From contig JAGXKN010000024.1 in NCBI GenBank assembly GCA_018335195.1, forward strand, positions 1-51,026: a stretch of DNA of 51,026 bases, in the 5' to 3' direction. This document shows, piece by piece, positions 37,452-47,920 of the stretch. Positions within the stretch are counted from its first letter, which is position 1; every line of letters starts with the position of its first letter. Position numbers and translations under genes: made by a program. The notes below the pieces were generated by a model. That model had not been told where the DNA came from. It worked only from the letters and a program-made list of their open reading frames with translations, and searched no databases. The DNA comes from Desulfobacterales bacterium. Lineage in GTDB: Bacteria; Desulfobacterota; Desulfobacteria; Desulfobacterales; Desulfosalsimonadaceae.

Positions 37452-37744
37452 GTTGGACTCCAGATATTTCATCGCATTATTGTGCCGGATTTTCGGGGAT
37501 CCGGTTTACGAATCTGTATTAATTTGTCATAATATCACATCTCCGGGAACCGATAAAGGGCAATCCGCAGGCGCGGCCCCGATCCCGAAGTTCTAGCCCT
37601 TTCGGCAGGGCGGCGGCGTTGAAAGTGAAGACTGAAGATTTATATTTTTATTTCATATAGTTTTATACATTTCATTTGTGGTTGCAAAAGCCGGACCGGG
37701 AAGATTTTTCCGGTCTGTATCCGGATATGCGAAAAGGAGCGCCT

Positions 37745-40012
37745 ATGTTTACCCGATGGCTGCCGTGGAAGTTTATTGTCAAACGGGCGGCAAAGCGATT
37801 CGGTATTATTGACCCGATTCAACTCGCCGCCCGGGCCCGCCGGTTTTCACAGCCCTCCGAGGTCCAGGAGCCCATAGAACTGCTGCGCGCCGGGATTATC
37901 TTCCACGCTAGGGGCCTGATCAATACCAAGGCGATTCAATACAATCTGGACTGGATATGGCCCTTCTGGGTGCAAAAGCAGTTCAATCCCCGGGACTACT
38001 CATTCATCCCGCGCGGCTTTGCCTTCAGCCACGTCAATATAACCCATCGCAACTGGACTGCAGTCGGACATCCGGATCTGCCGGTCTATCCCATCATGGA
38101 TCCGCGGGGCTTGGTCACGCCCCTGTATGACGGGTGGTCCCTGGACTTCTGGATCATTGATGCCCGGGGAGAAAAAATGATCCCTTCCATGGGCGATGAC
38201 ACGGATCAGCATCTGGATACCCGGGATGGGTTGAAGCTTGTCAACCGATGCCATGCAGACGGTATTGACCTCAATACCGAACTGCAGATGGAATGGGAGA
38301 ATAACTCGGCCCTTGCGGTGATTTCTTCGCGCGGACGGGCAAAACAGGGCGGTTGGCTCGTGGTGGCCCTGCGCCCCTATAATCCGGAAGGTATCCAGTT
38401 TATCGAATCCATTGAATTTCAGGATCACGCCAGGCCGTTCTGGCTGATCAACCGGCATGCGCGGATATACATGGATCGGCAGCCGGAAAAGGTTCTTTTC
38501 TCGGATTATTCCGAGGGAGACGTGATTGATAAGTGGCGCGGCCCGCAGAGTGTTAACAGTGTGAAGTGCAGGGTGGGCATGGCCACATCTGCTGCGTTTT
38601 TTCCGCTCCCGACAGATCAGGAGCAAAGCCTTCGGGTTTCCGTGGACCTGGAAAAGGACATGCCGGCGCGCAGTACGCGCAGGAAAACACCCGTGCACAC
38701 CTGGGAGGGGTTGCTGGCTGAAACCGCGCTGTTGGAAGTTCCGGATGAAAAGTTCCGGTTTCTCTATGATACGGCGGTTCGCACCCTGCTCATGCTCTCG
38801 GCCCTTGATCCGGTGCCGGGGCCGTATACCTACCGCCGGTTCTGGTTCCGGGATGCCTGCCTGATGTTAAACGCCATGATGGCGGCAAACATGGTGGGCC
38901 GCAGTTCCATGTGCATCAATCGCTTTCCGGCCAGGCAAAAGACCAGCGGGTATTTCCAGTCCCAGGAAGGCGAATGGGATTCCAACGGTCAGGTGCTCTG
39001 GATCATGGGCCGCTACCTGCGCCTGACCGGACACAGACCTCCCCGGAGCTGGCTTGATGCGGGCCTGAAGGCAGCAGCGTGGATTGAAAAAAAGCGCACC
39101 CGGAAAAGACCCGGAATGCGTCATGGCGGACTGCTGCCGGCGGGTTTCAGCGCTGAGCACCTGGGGCCCAATGATTATTATTATTGGGACGATTTCTGGG
39201 GGCTGGCGGGCTTGGGCGAAGCCGCGGCAATGGCCCGCAAATATCACAGCGCGGCCATGGGCGAGAAACTCGATGCATTTTACCAGGATTTTTTAAAGTG
39301 TATATTCAGCAGTATTTCCGCCATTCCGGAGTGGAAAAGCCGGCGTGCGGTGCCGGCCTCCCCGTATCGCCGCATGGACGCCGGGGCGATCGGTTCCCTG
39401 GTGGCGGATTATCCTCTGCAGCTTACCCCGGCCGGGGATCCGAAGATTATGAATACTGTGGAATTTTTGATGAACCACTGCTTTTATGAAGGCGCCTTTT
39501 TCCAGGACATGATTCATTCCGGGATCAATGCGTACCTGACCCTGGATATCGCCCAGACCCTGCTGCGGGCCGGGGATTTGCGTTATCAGGCACTGATTCG
39601 GAATGTGGCGGATCTGGCCTCGCCTACCGGCCAGTGGCCGGAGGCGATCCATCCGCATACCAAGGGCGGATGCATGGGAGACGGGCAGCACGGATGGGCC
39701 GCGGCCGAATGGGTGCTTATGATGCGGAACCTGTTTGTACGGGAAGAAAAAGCCGACTTGGTGATCGGATCAGGGGTGTTTCCGCAATGGCTTTCCGGGT
39801 CGAAAACCCTGCGGTTCGGACCGACGCCCACCCCGCACGGCCCTGTTACCGTGCGCATTGCCCCGCAGGACAGGGCCGCACAGGTGGAAATCGAAGGATA
39901 TTGGAATGACCGCTCGCCTGAGATCCGGATCGAGATTCCGGGCTTTGAGGCTGCAGCAGTGGCTGCCGGAGAAAACATCACCCATCTGCGAAAAGAGGTT
40001 TCAAAAAAGTGA
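37745..40012 (+). CDS. Glycosidase-like (alpha/alpha)6-barrel protein
   Basis: A 755-residue protein without signal peptide. The N-terminal part (about 40-300) is beta-rich and resembles the sandwich domain before many six-hairpin glycosidases. The C-terminal half (about 330-690) looks like an (alpha/alpha)6 barrel of GH15/amylo-glucosidase type, with YRRFWFRDACLML, GEWDSNGQVLWIMGRYL, NDYYYWDDFWGLAGLGEA and TGQWPEAIHPHTKGG, which hold candidate acidic catalytic residues. The substrate is unknown. AAGGAG precedes the ATG by five bases; a longer frame from 37676 is rejected. Translation is coupled to the GT4 gene by a GTGA overlap, so both probably act on one glucan or glycolipid. Confidence 0.7.
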   Translation: MFTRWLPWKFIVKRAAKRFGIIDPIQLAARARRFSQPSEVQEPIELLRAGIIFHARGLINTKAIQYNLDWIWPFWVQKQFNPRDYSFIPRGFAFSHVNITHRNWTAVGHPDLPVYPIMDPRGLVTPLYDGWSLDFWIIDARGEKMIPSMGDDTDQHLDTRDGLKLVNRCHADGIDLNTELQMEWENNSALAVISSRGRAKQGGWLVVALRPYNPEGIQFIESIEFQDHARPFWLINRHARIYMDRQPEKVLFSDYSEGDVIDKWRGPQSVNSVKCRVGMATSAAFFPLPTDQEQSLRVSVDLEKDMPARSTRRKTPVHTWEGLLAETALLEVPDEKFRFLYDTAVRTLLMLSALDPVPGPYTYRRFWFRDACLMLNAMMAANMVGRSSMCINRFPARQKTSGYFQSQEGEWDSNGQVLWIMGRYLRLTGHRPPRSWLDAGLKAAAWIEKKRTRKRPGMRHGGLLPAGFSAEHLGPNDYYYWDDFWGLAGLGEAAAMARKYHSAAMGEKLDAFYQDFLKCIFSSISAIPEWKSRRAVPASPYRRMDAGAIGSLVADYPLQLTPAGDPKIMNTVEFLMNHCFYEGAFFQDMIHSGINAYLTLDIAQTLLRAGDLRYQALIRNVADLASPTGQWPEAIHPHTKGGCMGDGQHGWAAAEWVLMMRNLFVREEKADLVIGSGVFPQWLSGSKTLRFGPTPTPHGPVTVRIAPQDRAAQVEIEGYWNDRSPEIRIEIPGFEAAAVAAGENITHLRKEVSKK

Positions 40013-41319: not shown

Positions 41320-42285
41320 ATGCCCAGAGACCAGAAAACAACGACGTCACTGATATACGGCCCGGTGCCTTCCAGGCGCCTGGGGCGTTCGTTGGGCGTG
41401 GATATCGTACCCTACAAGACCTGCACGTATGACTGTATTTACTGTCAGATTGGCCGAACCCCACAGACCACTATCGAACGCAAACCCTATATTCCGGCTG
41501 CACGGATCGTTTCCGAACTCGAAGTCAGGCTCCGCTCCGGGGTGCGGCCGGATTACGTTACAGTCGGCGGTTCGGGCGAGCCCTGCCTGCACAGCGAAAT
41601 CGGGGAGATTATTCTAAAGATCAAGGAAATGACTGATGTCCCGGTGGCGGTGTTGACCAACGGCGCGCTGCTTTGGTCTCCGGATGTACGCGGTGCGCTG
41701 CTGCCTGCAGACGTGGTGCTGCCCTCATTTGATGCCTTTGATGCCCACAGCTTTCAAAAGATTAACCGGCCGCATCCGGATATTTCATTTGAAACTATGA
41801 TTCAGGGGATTGCGGATTTCCGGTCGGTTTATTCCGGGCGGATCTGGCTGGAAATTTTTATCATAAAGGGCGTCAATGACACCGAGGATGCGATGGCCGC
41901 CTTTGGTCCGCATATTGCAGAGATCAACCCGGACCGCATTCATGTCAACACGGCGGTGCGCCCGCCGGCTGAAAAATATGCCGGCCAGGTTTCCGAGGAG
42001 GCGCTTCAACGGCTTGCCGAAAAACTGGATCCGCGGGCGGAGGTGATTGCAGAATTCAGCGGCGAAAGCCGGGATGGCAATAAAGACGACATGAACCAAG
42101 AGATCCTGGAAATGCTTTCCCGCCGGCCCTGCACGGCACAGGATATCGCCGCCGGCCTGGGCCTGCCCCTGGACGCCGTGGACCGGCAGGTAACTGACAT
42201 GGCCCGAAGCCAAACGATCCAGACCCGCCGCAGCGACGGCAGGCTCTACTATTTCCGGCCTGCCGAAAAGACAACAGACCACTAG
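41320..42285 (+). CDS. Radical SAM protein with C-terminal winged-helix region
   Basis: A 321-residue protein of the COG0731-like radical SAM group. The cluster motif is CTYDCIYC (C-x3-C-x2-C, about 36-43), preceded by the subgroup signature YGPVPSRRLGRSLGVD. The SAM-binding GGSGEP and the strand VAVLTNGALL follow. The last 65 residues (NQEILEMLSRRPCTAQDIAAG onwards) look like a small helix-turn-helix or winged-helix domain, perhaps used for nucleic acid binding. Function unknown; relatives are annotated as tRNA-modifying or generic. A textbook GGAGGAAA ribosome site precedes the ATG. It lies 27 bases after the glycosyltransferase. Confidence 0.85.
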   Translation: MPRDQKTTTSLIYGPVPSRRLGRSLGVDIVPYKTCTYDCIYCQIGRTPQTTIERKPYIPAARIVSELEVRLRSGVRPDYVTVGGSGEPCLHSEIGEIILKIKEMTDVPVAVLTNGALLWSPDVRGALLPADVVLPSFDAFDAHSFQKINRPHPDISFETMIQGIADFRSVYSGRIWLEIFIIKGVNDTEDAMAAFGPHIAEINPDRIHVNTAVRPPAEKYAGQVSEEALQRLAEKLDPRAEVIAEFSGESRDGNKDDMNQEILEMLSRRPCTAQDIAAGLGLPLDAVDRQVTDMARSQTIQTRRSDGRLYYFRPAEKTTDH

Positions 42286-42593: not shown

Positions 42594-43142
42594 TCAGGGA
42601 TAAATCGTGACTTTAACTTTCCGCCGCCCCCATTGCAGAGCCTCGTGATGGGATTTGTAAAATATGTCCAGGCGGTTTGGGCCCTTGATGGCGCCGCCGC
42701 GGTCCTCGACCACACCGCAGCCGTAGCCGGGTACGTACATGCGGGTGCCGAATGCGTAATATCGGGTATCCGCGGCAATGGTGCCGTCCTGTGACAGAAA
42801 CAGCCAGGGAAACAGAACAATTCGCACCGGGATCATCCAGGGGTGGACCAAGCTGTCCACGGAAAACAGGCCCGGGCGGGGTTCACGGGGTTTGGTGCCG
42901 GAGGCGGTCAGGCCGGAATAGGGCGCACCCGCTTTCGGGCCTTTGGTAATATAGCGATTCCAGAAATCAAGCTTGAGACATTTCCAGGAGCCTCTTTCCC
43001 AATCGCAGCACTGGCCGCACCCGCAATAAGAGGTAACCTCCATAATGCGCGTTTGGGGCTTTGCCCCGCATGCACAAAGCGCCAGAATCAACCCGGTGAT
43101 CAGAAACAGAAATACAATCCTGGACAGACGGCGGCGATCCAT
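42594..43142 (-). CDS. 3D-domain lipoprotein
   Basis: A 182-residue exported protein. The N-terminus (basic RRR, hydrophobic helix, then LCAC) looks like a lipoprotein signal with Cys 25 as the likely lipidated residue. A cysteine-rich segment (SYCGCGQCCDWERGSWKC) follows. The C-terminal part is a 3D (double-psi beta-barrel) domain as in MltA/YuiC-type proteins: LTASGT, then TIAADTRYYAFGTRMYVPG, VVEDRGGAIKGPNRLDIFY with the three conserved Asp. Such domains can cleave peptidoglycan glycan strands. It ends the minus-strand cluster, three bases after the radical SAM gene. Confidence 0.85.
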   Translation of the reverse strand: MDRRRLSRIVFLFLITGLILALCACGAKPQTRIMEVTSYCGCGQCCDWERGSWKCLKLDFWNRYITKGPKAGAPYSGLTASGTKPREPRPGLFSVDSLVHPWMIPVRIVLFPWLFLSQDGTIAADTRYYAFGTRMYVPGYGCGVVEDRGGAIKGPNRLDIFYKSHHEALQWGRRKVKVTIYP

Positions 43143-43145
43143 ACG

Positions 43146-44345
43146 TTATGATTCGTCCTTTTCGCTCCAGACCCCCGGAATTACAGTATCACAGAATCTG
43201 CACCTGCCGCCTGACAGCCCCGCGGCGGAAATCTCGTATCCCTGTCGCTCGATGATCATTTCCCCGCAGTTGTGGCAATAGGTATGGTTTGCCTCGTGCC
43301 CGGGCACATTGCCGATATAGACATACCGGATGCCCTCTTCCATGGCGATTTCGCGCATCTGTTCCATGGCGGACACCGGCGTGGGCGGCAGGCGGTCGAG
43401 CTTGTAATGGGGATAAAAACGCAGAAAATGCAGGGGATGGTTGCCCCCGAGATTGTCCGTGATCCATTTGCACATGTCGCGGATCATATCCGGGTCATCC
43501 ACATAGCCAGGCACCAGAAGCGTTGTCATTTCAAAATGTACGTTTTTTTCATTAAGCGTTTTGAAGGTGTCCAGCACCGGCTGCAGGCGGCCGCCGTTTA
43601 GTTTCCGGTACAATTTGTCGTCAAAGGACTTGAGATTGATGTTGGCGGCATCCAGGACCTCGCACAGGGCCAGCAGCGGCTCGCGGTTGACATACCCGTT
43701 TGAGATCAACAGGTTTTTTACCTCCTTTTGCCGGGCAATACGCGCGGTATCCATCATGTATTCAAAAAACGTCAGGGGCTCGGAATAGGTATATGCGATG
43801 GCCCGGGCATCCGTGCGAAGCGCCCGCTGCACTGCCGCCTCGGGAAACAGGTCATAGTGCCGGACATCTTCGGGCCGGACCTGGGAGATTTCCCAGTTCT
43901 GGCAGTTCAGGCACCGGAAGCTGCATCCGGTGGCGGCCATTGAAAAAACGCGGTTCTGCGGGAGAAAGTGAAAAAGCGGTTTCTTTTCAATCGGATCCAC
44001 ATGAACGGAACAGGGATTTCCGTAGGCAAGCGTATACAGCTTGCCGTACATGTTGACCTTGGAACGGCATATGCTGCGATCGCCCACAGACAGGGTGCAG
44101 TGGTTGGGGCAGACATTGCACGCCACTTTCCCGCCGGCCAGCTTTTCGTAGGAAAACGCTTCCCTGGACCATTTCCAGAGCTCGTCCGGGGCGTCATCCT
44201 TAAATACGTGTACCCGCCCGACCGACTTCTGTCCGTCTGCGGCGCCGGCCGGGCGCACCAATCCGGCACCGCCGCCCAGGGCCGCCCAGAGGCAGGCCCC
44301 GCTGCAGCCCAGAAGAAAGTTTCTGCGGGACAGGTTATGTATCAT
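43146..44345 (-). CDS. amrS: AmmeMemoRadiSam system radical SAM enzyme
   Basis: A 399-residue radical SAM protein of the group that co-occurs with Memo and AMMECR1 proteins; its reaction is not established. The N-terminus has a twin-arginine signal (SRRNFLLG, hydrophobic stretch, likely cleavage near GAADG). A CNVCPNHCTL and ICRSK cysteine region follows, then the radical SAM motif GCSFRCLNCQNW and LTFFEYMMD. Near the C-terminus extra cysteines (CHNCGE and CRFCDT) suggest another metal site. A Tat signal on a radical SAM enzyme is unusual because SAM and reductant are cytoplasmic. Start is ATG 44345; TTG 44351 is possible. It overlaps the upstream gene by 11 bases. Confidence 0.9.
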   Translation of the reverse strand: MIHNLSRRNFLLGCSGACLWAALGGGAGLVRPAGAADGQKSVGRVHVFKDDAPDELWKWSREAFSYEKLAGGKVACNVCPNHCTLSVGDRSICRSKVNMYGKLYTLAYGNPCSVHVDPIEKKPLFHFLPQNRVFSMAATGCSFRCLNCQNWEISQVRPEDVRHYDLFPEAAVQRALRTDARAIAYTYSEPLTFFEYMMDTARIARQKEVKNLLISNGYVNREPLLALCEVLDAANINLKSFDDKLYRKLNGGRLQPVLDTFKTLNEKNVHFEMTTLLVPGYVDDPDMIRDMCKWITDNLGGNHPLHFLRFYPHYKLDRLPPTPVSAMEQMREIAMEEGIRYVYIGNVPGHEANHTYCHNCGEMIIERQGYEISAAGLSGGRCRFCDTVIPGVWSEKDES

Positions 44346-46440
44346 AGGCAACGGTCACAAACGTCAAACTGAGCGTTTTCATGCCGATTAAGGCCGCCGC
44401 GGTCCAAATCAGTCCGAAATAGGGCATCAGCACCACGCTGACTGCCAGGGTGCCCACGGCCGCCCCGATGAGATCTGCTGAAAACGCCCGGACAGCCGCT
44501 GGGTTTTCTCGGCCGCCCACGTGCAGCGCCACCGGAAACTGAATGCCGCAGGCCAGGGATACGATCCCGCCAAAAAGAAGGAAGGCAGATTCCGGCAGCA
44601 CATCCCCGGCAAACCAGAGTGCGGCCATAAATGCGGCCACGGCCGCGATCAGCACGATGTCTGTCAAGATAAACAGGCGGCGACCGATATTCCTGTGGTA
44701 TTCCCCGATCACGGCGCCGGGCAGCAGGCCTGCCAGAAATACGGTGACAATCAGTCCGATCTCAAAATAAATATATCCGAAAAAGACCTGAAATGCAAAT
44801 ATCACCAGTACTTCGCTGCCCATGGTCATGGCGCCGGTGGTAAACAACACGAATTCCTCGCTTCGGCTCCGCAGCAGGTAGAATGCCAGTCCCAGCGCGA
44901 GCAGACCCATAAACACTGCGGGCGTGCTTTCAAACTCGGCAAACCACTGGGAAAACATAATGCCCACCAGTCGGGGCACATAATCGGTATTAACCGGGGC
45001 GTCGGCCTGCAGCCGGGATTTTATCTGACGTATTCGATCGGGTGTGACATTGCCGGTATAATATCCCCGGACAAATTGTGTGGAAATGTTTTTTTCCGCC
45101 AAGCCGGCAGGGATGTTCGTATCAAGGGACCGGTCGGCGCACAGAAAATAGAGGCGCTGGCCGGGCAGCATGAGGATATCGGAAAAGTGCGCCGAGGCGG
45201 TCTGGTGCAAAATCGAGATCTTTTCTCCCTGGATCTCCGAGATGTAATTGCCCGGGTCGTTGGTATGGAATGAGAAAATCCCGTTGTCGGTCAGGTGACG
45301 GCGGGCTTCAGCGAAAAACCGGATGGTAAAAAACCGGTTGATCTGGAATGTTTCCGGCTCGGGCAGATTGACGAGAATGGCGTCGTATTGCTTGTCGCTG
45401 CCGGATAGAAAAAGGCGGGCATCCTGGTGAATCACGTTTAGCCCCGGGATCTTGCGGAGCATGTCATATTGAAACAGTGCCCGGGTAATGGCCGGATCAA
45501 TTTCCACGTAATCCACGGATGCGGGTTCGTATTTCCGGATCTGGCGCATCATGCCGCCTTCTGCGGAAACCAGTAGCACGTGCTCCACCGTGTCGAGCTG
45601 GGACAGGGGGTAATGCACGGATTCTTCGGCCTGGACCAGGTTCTGGTCTGAAAATACGGGCCTGCCGTCGAGAAACAGCGTATGCTGCCCTTGGTTTTTG
45701 AAGATCTCTACCCTGCCGTACCGGGACTCTTTGTAGTGCACAAGTTCGCCGACAGGCCTTTGAAGGGACGGCGTTTCTGTCCAGAGCATGGCGGTCAGAC
45801 CGGCGATGCCAACAGCCGCGGCCAGGCCGAGGGCCAGGCGGAAGCGCCGGCCCGGGGGGACCAGAAAAAAGGCGGAAGCCAGCAGGGCAGCATTCACGAT
45901 GACCAGGGCCTGCATGGGCGTGGCAAAAAAGACCAGCAGAAAGGAAAAAAGGGCCCCTCCGCTCATATCCCCGATGTTGTCCGCGATATAGATCCGGGTA
46001 CCGGAAAAGCCCGGCTCCAGGACCCGGGCGCAAAACAGGCTGTAGGGAAGCACAAAGCCCAGCAGCAGACAATAGGGTGCGATCGTGGCCAGAATATAGC
46101 CAAAGGTGGCGTAAAAACCAACCGCGCTTCCCGTAACAAACAGCACATCCCGCAAGACCCTGACCGCAAGCAGGGTCAGGGGGGAGAGCACGGCAAGCAG
46201 CATGGTCAACAGGGACAGCCGGGTGCGGTCCGGGGGCAGAATCCGGGAGCCTGCAAGTCCTGACGCCCATGTGCCAAAACCACCTATCACCAGCCAGGAA
46301 AACAGGATCAGGGCAATGACAAATTCATTGCCCTGGAATCTGGAGAGAAATTCGCGGATAATCAGCAACTGGCTGACCACCGAGGAGATCCCGGTGACAA
46401 CGACCAGCTGCAGGATTCTGCCCTCAGTCCCGCTCTTCAA
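44335..46440 (-). CDS. Membrane protein with spermidine-synthase-like domain
   Basis: A 701-residue protein. About seven helices at residues 8-215 and about six more at 495-695 flank a soluble Rossmann domain (about 230-450) related to polyamine synthases: FLDGRPVFSDQN, ESVHYPLSQLDTVEHVLLV, VDYVEIDPAI and HQDARLFL. Key positions differ from true spermidine synthases: the glycine-rich SAM loop reads SAEGGM, and the strand that normally ends in a catalytic Asp (VDxxDP) reads ILVNLPEPE. It is thus unlikely to make spermidine. The only start available is TTG 46440, overlapping the Memo-AMMECR1 stop. It is embedded between the AmmeMemoRadiSam genes. Confidence 0.85.
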   Translation of the reverse strand: MKSGTEGRILQLVVVTGISSVVSQLLIIREFLSRFQGNEFVIALILFSWLVIGGFGTWASGLAGSRILPPDRTRLSLLTMLLAVLSPLTLLAVRVLRDVLFVTGSAVGFYATFGYILATIAPYCLLLGFVLPYSLFCARVLEPGFSGTRIYIADNIGDMSGGALFSFLLVFFATPMQALVIVNAALLASAFFLVPPGRRFRLALGLAAAVGIAGLTAMLWTETPSLQRPVGELVHYKESRYGRVEIFKNQGQHTLFLDGRPVFSDQNLVQAEESVHYPLSQLDTVEHVLLVSAEGGMMRQIRKYEPASVDYVEIDPAITRALFQYDMLRKIPGLNVIHQDARLFLSGSDKQYDAILVNLPEPETFQINRFFTIRFFAEARRHLTDNGIFSFHTNDPGNYISEIQGEKISILHQTASAHFSDILMLPGQRLYFLCADRSLDTNIPAGLAEKNISTQFVRGYYTGNVTPDRIRQIKSRLQADAPVNTDYVPRLVGIMFSQWFAEFESTPAVFMGLLALGLAFYLLRSRSEEFVLFTTGAMTMGSEVLVIFAFQVFFGYIYFEIGLIVTVFLAGLLPGAVIGEYHRNIGRRLFILTDIVLIAAVAAFMAALWFAGDVLPESAFLLFGGIVSLACGIQFPVALHVGGRENPAAVRAFSADLIGAAVGTLAVSVVLMPYFGLIWTAAALIGMKTLSLTFVTVAYDT

Positions 46441-47920
46441 AATACTGGGCCTGGTAGGTAAAGACCTGCAAGTCGCCCTTTTCCCATGCGTCCGGCGGCA
46501 GTCCGGCTTTCATGCAGAGCTGCTGAAGAAAGGATTTTTTGTCCGGAAGCTGTTCCCAGACCTGCGGCAGGAAGGTGGCGCTGCGTGCGCCTTTTTGGAT
46601 GATGAGCCCGTCGACATGGGTGCGGATCTTGTCGAGCAGGTCTTGGGCATCCGTGTATTCAAGCGGCTGCGGCTCGGTGAGCAGGCTGACCTCGATCTGA
46701 ATTCTGGAGAATTCTTCCGGAGACAGGGGGCCAAACCGCGGGTCATTAAAAGCCGCATTTACGGCGTTGTCCCTGACCCCCTCTATTAGCGGTTTTTCAG
46801 GCACCAGGTTTCCGATACAGCCTCGAAGCTGGTCATTGATTTTCAGAGTGACAAAAGTGCCGCGGTTGGATTGGAAGACCGGGTCCCGGGTGGCGTCGTC
46901 TCCGACCGGTGAACCCCCGGTTTTCAGGCCCAGGCGATCTGCGATGCTTTTGCGGGCCACTTCCAGCAGCACCTCTCCTTTTTCCCTGCTGATTTCCTGG
47001 TTGTTTTCATGTTCACTCATACGGGCTTCTCCATAAAATGCGATGGTTGCGTAACCGACCACTTGATCGCGCCTGCCGGCGGTATCCCCGCTGTTGGCAT
47101 AATGCAGCAGCCGGGGATTCCATTGTTTCCCCCGCGCTATTTCCATGAGCACCAGAAGCGGTTTCCAGCCGCATGCGCGCCGCGGGTCGGCCCCAAGTTC
47201 TTCCGATTTCATGCCTGTGATGATCTCGATTGTCGTGCGATCCCGGGATAAGGCCTCTCTATATGGCAGGTAATGGGACAGGTCTGTACTGACAATGATC
47301 AGGGTGTTGCTGTCCACGACGGTTTCAAGTGCCCCGGCATAGGATTCGATCTCATTGTTTTTTCCGAGCACGATCGGAATAATTTCAAAATCCGAAAGCC
47401 ATGTCTGCAGGAACGGGAGGATCACTTCCACGGCGTGTTCGCGCCTATCCGAGGCCGCAACCGGGCGGAACATCTCATACTGCTTTCGAAGGCGCGCGGC
47501 ATCCGCGTGAAGGTCCACATTGCCAAGTGGTGTCCGGTAACTGTCCGCATCGCTGATGGCCCCTTTGGCAAAGCCCACCCGGTGGTCCGGAGCCATGATA
47601 ATGATTTTGGAAAATGATTGTCCTTCCAGGACCTGTGCGGCACGGGCTGCAACGGGTCCGGAATACCGGTAGCCGGCATGCGGCATGATCAGGGCTTTCA
47701 GGGGCCGATCCGGAAGGTCTTTCACCGGATCCTTACGTGCCTGCCGGCTCATCTGCTCGATAGTTTGGGCAAGTTCATCCGGGTCCGCCGGGTAAAACGT
47801 TCCTGCCACCGCGGGCTTGCGCACTTCTCCGGCCTGAACTCCGGGCGCCGGCGTCCCGGCAAGCCAGATTGCGAGCAACGAAAAAATTACCGTAATGTAT
47901 TTTGCGCTGCAGGCGGACAT
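46424..47920 (-). CDS. Memo-AMMECR1 fusion protein (AmmeMemoRadiSam proteins B and A)
   Basis: A 498-residue exported two-domain protein. Residues 1-30 form a Sec signal peptide with likely cleavage after VQA. The Memo domain (about 35-290) starts KPAVAGTFYPADPDEL and has metal-site candidates in MPHAGYRYSGP, APDHRVG and the SHYLPYREA region. The AMMECR1 domain (about 310-495) has the signature LRGCIGNLVPEKPL and DPRFGPLSPEEF. These are usually two proteins; here they are one chain, implying they act together. It heads the minus-strand cluster and has a sigma-70-like promoter. Function of both domains is not established. Confidence 0.9.
   Translation of the reverse strand: MSACSAKYITVIFSLLAIWLAGTPAPGVQAGEVRKPAVAGTFYPADPDELAQTIEQMSRQARKDPVKDLPDRPLKALIMPHAGYRYSGPVAARAAQVLEGQSFSKIIIMAPDHRVGFAKGAISDADSYRTPLGNVDLHADAARLRKQYEMFRPVAASDRREHAVEVILPFLQTWLSDFEIIPIVLGKNNEIESYAGALETVVDSNTLIIVSTDLSHYLPYREALSRDRTTIEIITGMKSEELGADPRRACGWKPLLVLMEIARGKQWNPRLLHYANSGDTAGRRDQVVGYATIAFYGEARMSEHENNQEISREKGEVLLEVARKSIADRLGLKTGGSPVGDDATRDPVFQSNRGTFVTLKINDQLRGCIGNLVPEKPLIEGVRDNAVNAAFNDPRFGPLSPEEFSRIQIEVSLLTEPQPLEYTDAQDLLDKIRTHVDGLIIQKGARSATFLPQVWEQLPDKKSFLQQLCMKAGLPPDAWEKGDLQVFTYQAQYFEERD

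Follow-up and report, generated by a model that had tools for sequence, protein, structure and literature searches.

To our knowledge, radical SAM enzymes are regarded as confined to the cell interior, since they depend on SAM and on a strong reductant. The locus described here raises the question of whether this holds for AmrS, the radical SAM member of the AmmeMemoRadiSam trio. The window, by which we mean the whole stretch of 51,026 nucleotides analysed (contig C2 of a 3.29 Mb genome, 99.7 percent complete), carries at 42594-47920, on the minus strand, an operon that encodes a Memo-AMMECR1 fusion, a membrane protein, AmrS and a lipoprotein with a 3D domain, in that order (Table 1). An initial annotation had read an export or membrane feature in each of these four adjacent genes and had placed the whole system at or outside the inner membrane. 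The gene calls bear out the first part of this reading: the four ORFs are in place, and a twin-arginine (Tat) motif followed by an h-region in AmrS, a Sec-type signal in Memo-AMMECR1 and a lipobox in the 3D protein can be read from the sequence. The membrane gene starts with TTG and overlaps Memo-AMMECR1 by 17 bases; AmrS starts at the TTG at 44351 or, more likely, at the ATG at 44345, which gives an 11-base overlap with the membrane gene, and 3 bases separate it from the 3D gene.

Table 1. Features of the operon, with positions in the window
Feature	Position	Strand	Basis
Memo-AMMECR1 fusion (AmmeMemoSam B + A), 498 aa, N-terminal Sec-type signal	46424..47920	-	TIGR04336, 237.7 bits (cut-off 26); TIGR04335, 209.3 bits (cut-off 99)
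Predicted signal peptide region of Memo-AMMECR1, residues 1-30, ending GVQA	47831..47920	-	sequence; paralogue L036 without it
Memo domain, residues 34-295; H81, H113 and C250 match the iron site of human MEMO1	47036..47821	-	
AMMECR1 domain, residues 317-494; sole AMMECR1 found in the genome	46439..46972	-	
Membrane protein of MFS fold, 701 aa, with a SpeE-like domain inserted	44335..46440	-	
SpeE-like domain, residues 232-500, predicted periplasmic	44941..45747	-	
Radical SAM enzyme AmrS, from the likely start at ATG (with TTG the ORF extends to 44351)	43146..44345	-	
Twin-arginine motif SRRNFL of AmrS	44313..44330	-	sequence; conserved in relatives
Radical SAM motif CSFRCLNC (C143, C147, C150)	43902..43925	-	cysteines invariant in 26/26 aligned AmrS
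3D-domain lipoprotein, optional neighbour	42594..43142	-	present at 7/58 named loci whose flank is long enough
Lipobox LCAC of the 3D protein	43068..43079	-	sequence

Export signals of AmrS and Memo

All three AmmeMemoRadiSam families (TIGR04335, TIGR04336, TIGR04337) score over their NCBIfam cut-offs (for AmrS, 345.1 bits to TIGR04337 against 220) and are encoded in this one operon. Unlike known AmmeMemoRadiSam, the AmrS and Memo(-AMMECR1) of the window carry export signals, and signal-less versions of both are encoded in the same genome: a second AmrS on contig C35 (frame of 342 residues, beginning MEARLYE) and another Memo on contig C17 (beginning MSLRKPVF). Since these paralogues lie on other contigs and lack signals, the window copy is a separate set, which its signals would direct out of the cytoplasm. 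We regard this export form as a variant of AmmeMemoRadiSam in its own right.

We judged Tat and Sec signals by custom rules, and topology by AlphaFold and loop charge, both in a sample of genomes from the window's phylum and in 80 named loci, the best 80 of 193 relatives kept from a contig scan. After matches below 300 bits and duplicates had been dropped, 269 distinct AmrS were scored, with 166 passing the Tat rule, 101 failing it and two truncated copies tallied apart. The 166 span at least 39 families; the motif reads RR in 147 of them, RK in 11 and KR in 8, and its conserved F is present in 154. The same test passed 196 of 8300 shuffled AmrS extensions and 62 of 998 neighbouring ORFs (for which the start-codon condition was left out). 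Chance and mis-called starts, considered as sources of the signal, are ruled out by these controls together with its conservation.

The envelope location also depends on the homologues in relatives, in which a lack of signals was named at the outset as one observation that would overturn it. The signals are kept: 66 of the 68 distinct AmrS of the named loci pass the Tat rule, and the other two are a broken frame (L140) and a sequence that is Tat by eye (L199). Among the AmrS that lie within 5 kb of the membrane gene in the other sampled genomes, 44 pass and 8 fail. All 90 complete Memo proteins within the same distance have a Sec-type signal or anchor, a count that has weight only against its background, because the Sec rule is loose and also lets through 257 of the 998 neighbour ORFs and 5 of the 101 non-Tat AmrS. 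With its conserved twin-arginine signal, and with TatC encoded in the genome, the window AmrS is a predicted Tat substrate, and the AmmeMemoRadiSam set is very probably located at the envelope.

The claim that the whole system lies outside holds for AmrS and Memo, as far as their signals tell, but is too strong for AMMECR1. Of the 19 separate, complete AMMECR1 genes located no more than 5 kb from the membrane gene, six fail the loose signal rule (L083, L096, L167, L181, L186 and L202) and the other 13 pass it; two of those that pass, in L172 and L173, show no signal by eye, and the AMMECR1 of L302, which is not near a membrane gene, also lacks one. In six loci (L167, L172, L173, L181, L186 and L202) Memo and AMMECR1 are split in two genes, of which Memo keeps its signal and AMMECR1 apparently starts without one. 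Other exceptions concern AmrS. Seven genomes of family f20 (loci L085, L089, L090, L092, L097, L101 and L325) have a signal-less AmrS at a distance of 1.1-1.7 kb from the membrane gene, and five of the seven have a Tat copy elsewhere by the rule; three genomes of family f21 (G049, G085 and G011) have the membrane protein and a membrane-anchored Memo, with no Tat-AmrS seen; and L190, a named locus, lacks an AmrS within 6 kb.

A transporter-like partner with a SpeE-like domain

The AlphaFold model of the membrane protein (32 sequences; pLDDT 90.4, pTM 0.90) contains 13 membrane helices, the number first proposed, but the last of them is 55 residues long, which on an MFS fold suggests 14 spans, seven before and seven after the SpeE-like domain. 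In the predicted model the helical part has the MFS fold, matching G6PT1 (9ll1; Z 30.5 over 352 residues, 3.6 A) and PepTSt (5oxk; Z 27.3 over 366 residues, 4.0 A), the latter presumably with 14 helices, and the middle domain matches SpeE (1uir; Z 27.8 over 264 residues, 2.8 A). A Pfam match to Spermine_synth (44.6 bits, cut-off 22.9) agrees with the latter. The positive-inside count, taken as K + R in loops, places the SpeE-like domain outside in all 32 sequences.

When aligned to 1uir, D340 is invariant and E313 nearly so; we take these positions to be adenosine-binding sites in SpeE. The positions of the DxTDP acids, which we take from SpeE structures to be catalytic, vary across 20 sequences by eye, and near relatives of the window protein read [ND]LP[ED]PxTxQxNR instead. 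Thus, the SpeE fold is present and its catalytic acids are replaced. Since the positions of the adenosine site are kept and the catalytic acids are not, we infer that the protein is a transporter bearing an adenosyl-ligand site rather than an aminopropyltransferase. An active spermidine synthase is ruled out by the replaced motif and by scores below cut-offs: although MFS-type helices are joined to a SpeE fold here too, as in the fused MFS/spermidine synthase NF037959 and in PRK03612-type SpeE, the window protein reaches 25.8 bits against a curated cut-off of 40 for the former and 99 against 472 for the latter.

The distribution of this protein follows that of exported AmrS. AmrS scores over its cut-off in 271 of the 297 sampled genomes, and the membrane protein is matched at E 1e-10 in 114 of them, 104 at 86 bits or more. 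We compared these 104 with 80 of the 183 match-free genomes, hand-picked rather than random, as a broad and fairly complete set; the 10 weaker matches, one of which (G041) has a Tat-AmrS, were put in neither group. Co-occurrence of the membrane gene with AmrS, proposed initially as a check, is borne out for the exported form: of the 104 genomes with the membrane protein, 88 have a Tat-AmrS by our rule, versus 2 of the 80 without it (Fisher p 7e-33, kinship ignored). The 88 is a lower bound by the rule, because some AmrS copies in the former group are unread. Read by eye, G048 among the 88 was passed in error, and G135 and G023 among the 16 misses do have a Tat motif. In the group without the membrane protein, the 26 AmrS frames of at least 365 aa were read and shorter ones were excluded by length, the shortest Tat-AmrS frame uncut by a sequence end being 367 aa; in one of its two positives, G295, a truncated match to the membrane protein lies where the same contig ends. 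As a control for kinship, in the 14 families that hold both kinds of genome, 12 are concordant, none is opposite and two are ties. On a FastTree phylogeny of 214 AmrS (15 from named loci), the Tat label changes 8 times versus 71 in shuffles, and export is therefore seldom switched.

At the level of the locus, 71 of the best 80 relatives hold Memo, AMMECR1, the membrane gene and AmrS together. Seven lack AmrS, six of which end within or soon after the membrane gene (L190 does not), and two lack Memo and AMMECR1. The closest named relative of the membrane protein, in a Desulfobacteraceae assembly (L126), is 92 percent identical. Clustering of the neighbour genes found no further conserved partner general to these operons. 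The co-distributed MFS-SpeE partner is a further difference from known AmmeMemoRadiSam, and we consider it very likely that this membrane protein and the exported AmrS are functionally paired. Whether it also solves the supply of SAM, as had been suggested, is a weaker proposition: the MFS fold, the outward SpeE-like domain and the co-occurrence with Tat-AmrS fit it, and we tentatively propose that this protein may supply SAM to exported AmrS.

Catalytic sites and possible electron donors

Across 26 aligned AmrS (22 of the exported type and 4 signal-less), C143, C147, C150 and eight further cysteines are invariant, and the identity of both types to the window AmrS ranges from 39 to 62 percent. 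Its nearest solved sequence (E 2.3e-13) and fold is pyruvate formate-lyase (PFL) activating enzyme (PDB 3cb8, 3c8f), with the model matching 3cb8 at Z 22.9 over 225 residues (2.2 A). By its CxxxCxxC motif and PFL-activase-like barrel, AmrS is a radical SAM enzyme, which differs from the PFL activase in its extra N- and C-terminal cysteine motifs and its Tat signal. The NCBIfam and Pfam scans of neighbouring genes in the window identified no glycyl radical enzyme. In Memo, the triad H81, H113 and C250 is invariant in 12 of 12 proteins and corresponds to H49, H81 and C244 of human MEMO1 (PDB 7kq8), from which the window Memo differs by its signal and its fusion to AMMECR1. According to PMC11081632, human MEMO1 binds iron or copper at this triad. 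The term "Memo-Ammecr1 systems" is credited to Burroughs 2019 in PMC7159879, and the literature listings searched, which did not extend to the text of Burroughs 2019, contained no description of a reaction for the trio.

A second radical SAM gene lies at 41320-42285 of the window, convergent with the operon and below every NCBIfam cut-off. Elsewhere in the window, a 778-aa ORF at 37676-40012, beside a GT4 glycosyltransferase, has no Pfam or NCBIfam match at E 0.001.

In a few exported AmrS there is a possible haem-c motif: CxxCH stands between the Tat signal and the radical SAM domain in 5 of 166 Tat-AmrS versus 0 of 101 non-Tat AmrS; the window AmrS has none there. By itself the motif is weak evidence, since it also occurs inside the cysteine-rich enzyme domain in both groups (21 of 166 Tat, 16 of 101 other AmrS). 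A wider search with one CxxCH-bearing AmrS (395 genomes, E 1e-120) gave 14 matches, eight of them, from five families, with the motif and a later histidine (L019, L220, L274, L326, L332, L360, L362 and L369). The 12 matches above 470 bits, which we took as a subgroup, are all Tat, and the four of these that lack CxxCH belong to one genus. Haem c is attached outside the cytoplasm, and the motif therefore supports export and hints at an electron route. Haem may bind at the CxxCH of these Tat-AmrS, and the eight proteins with the motif and a later histidine are possible haem-c radical SAM fusions.

Motif tests for other electron donors beside the operon found none at the 44 Tat-AmrS that adjoin the membrane gene, and no donor gene is a conserved neighbour of the operon, which counts against the exported model. 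Ferredoxin-like motifs occur near 7 of 56 Tat-AmrS without an adjacent membrane gene, 0 of 44 with it, 2 of 66 in named loci and 2 of 91 non-Tat AmrS; for NapH-like motifs the respective counts are 5 (all in family f16), 0, 0 and 2 (NosR-like), and for two or more haem motifs 2, 0, 0 and 2. The NapH-like polyferredoxin genes of f16 (L213:7176-8123, L217:2660-3688, L234:1825-2745, L311:3283-4002 and L316:5801-6826; Pfam scan of the first) are candidates for an electron conduit to the Tat-AmrS of that family. In families f21 and f41, NosR-like genes with FMN_bind and Fer4_5 are found at L008:2-1087, L010:2676-3944 and L007:1-963 (the last by similarity only), close to a signal-less AmrS and a Memo with a membrane anchor. 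Genes for aldehyde:ferredoxin oxidoreductase (e.g., L197:9897-11744) recur near 12 Tat-AmrS versus 2 other AmrS, and DUF362 near 8 versus 1, one representative of each having been scanned with Pfam. We treat all these recurrences of aldehyde:ferredoxin oxidoreductase, DUF362, NapH-like, ferredoxin-like and haem motifs as leads only.

A proposed periplasmic system and its alternatives

The explanation that we put forward is a periplasmic AmmeMemoRadiSam variant. As its signal implies, AmrS would fold and gain its iron-sulfur clusters in the cytoplasm before Tat export, while Memo-AMMECR1 would cross via Sec and fold outside. There, AmrS may act together with Memo, which has the iron site, and with AMMECR1 on a substrate in the periplasm or envelope, by radical chemistry of the PFL-activase kind. 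The MFS-fold protein, whose SAM/MTA-type domain faces outward, could bring SAM out, hold it or recover its products. For the source of electrons we have leads only, towards carriers in the envelope such as haem c or proteins of the NapH/NosR type. We lean slightly towards radical SAM catalysis outside the inner membrane; the full explanation, SAM step included, we regard as plausible, if a little short of probable. A more specific version, in which the cluster-loaded, Tat-exported AmrS catalyses outside with SAM from a dedicated MFS-SpeE transporter and with electrons fed in by its own haem c in one subgroup, is somewhat unlikely in all its parts.

The rival that deserves most attention, although we think it unlikely, is that exported AmrS no longer cleaves SAM and acts as an iron-sulfur redox or metal partner of Memo, with MFS-SpeE carrying a polyamine, a nucleoside or another metabolite. 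It would fit a periplasm in which we know of no SAM or strong reductant, the metal triad kept in Memo, its use for iron or copper in human MEMO1 and the possible haem-c motif of some exported AmrS. Against it, exported AmrS keep the radical SAM cysteines without exception, as the signal-less ones do, and the membrane partner has a SAM/MTA-type fold with the adenosine-site positions kept. Catalysis could instead precede export. Because Tat translocates proteins that are already folded and loaded with cofactors, AmrS would meet no lack of SAM or reductant if it acted while still in the cytoplasm, whether on itself or on a substrate, and then left spent or loaded, with Tat as quality control and the membrane protein exporting the product. 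Although separate AMMECR1 genes often lack a signal and the membrane part is an MFS transporter fold, as this would have it, Memo would have to cross separately, given its signals (90/90, over the background of 257/998), and the SpeE-like domain faces outward in every sequence; we consider such an order of events improbable. That the signals are non-functional and the proteins cytoplasmic can hardly be right: the signal-less minority of separate AMMECR1 genes agrees with it, but the Tat motif recurs by rule in 166 AmrS of at least 39 families while paralogues have no such extension, and the co-distribution with an outward-facing membrane partner and the possible haem-c motifs also speak against it.

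There remains the link to peptidoglycan, offered in the initial annotation as one hypothesis, in which the 3D lipoprotein would be a working partner of the system. By its Pfam match (59.9 bits, cut-off 23.8) and its lipobox, the protein is a predicted 3D lipoprotein, like 3D-domain cell-wall proteins (PF06725), and in seven named loci, as in the window, its gene is the next one after AmrS and shares its strand. Of the 58 named loci in which 700 bases or more follow AmrS, however, 51 do not have it, and across 355 loci searched it turned up nowhere beyond those seven and the window's own. This distribution rules out the 3D protein as a core member; it is an optional neighbour and not a conserved part of the AmmeMemoRadiSam set, and peptidoglycan-linked chemistry is therefore unsupported and highly improbable. 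A GPVPSRRLG-type radical SAM protein, as encoded at 41320-42285, is found in 10 other loci, of which six also bear the 3D gene (L128, L133, L170, L171, L178 and L194), so the two look like local synteny.

A phrase search of the literature, which covered few subscription papers and no bioRxiv preprints, found no paper that names a radical SAM enzyme as periplasmic, exported, secreted, extracellular or extracytoplasmic. If the periplasmic reading is true, this export form, widespread and co-inherited with its transporter-like partner, would break the rule that these enzymes are intracellular only, and it would suggest that SAM is trafficked into the periplasm. The AmmeMemoRadiSam trio would then gain a setting in which to seek its substrate.
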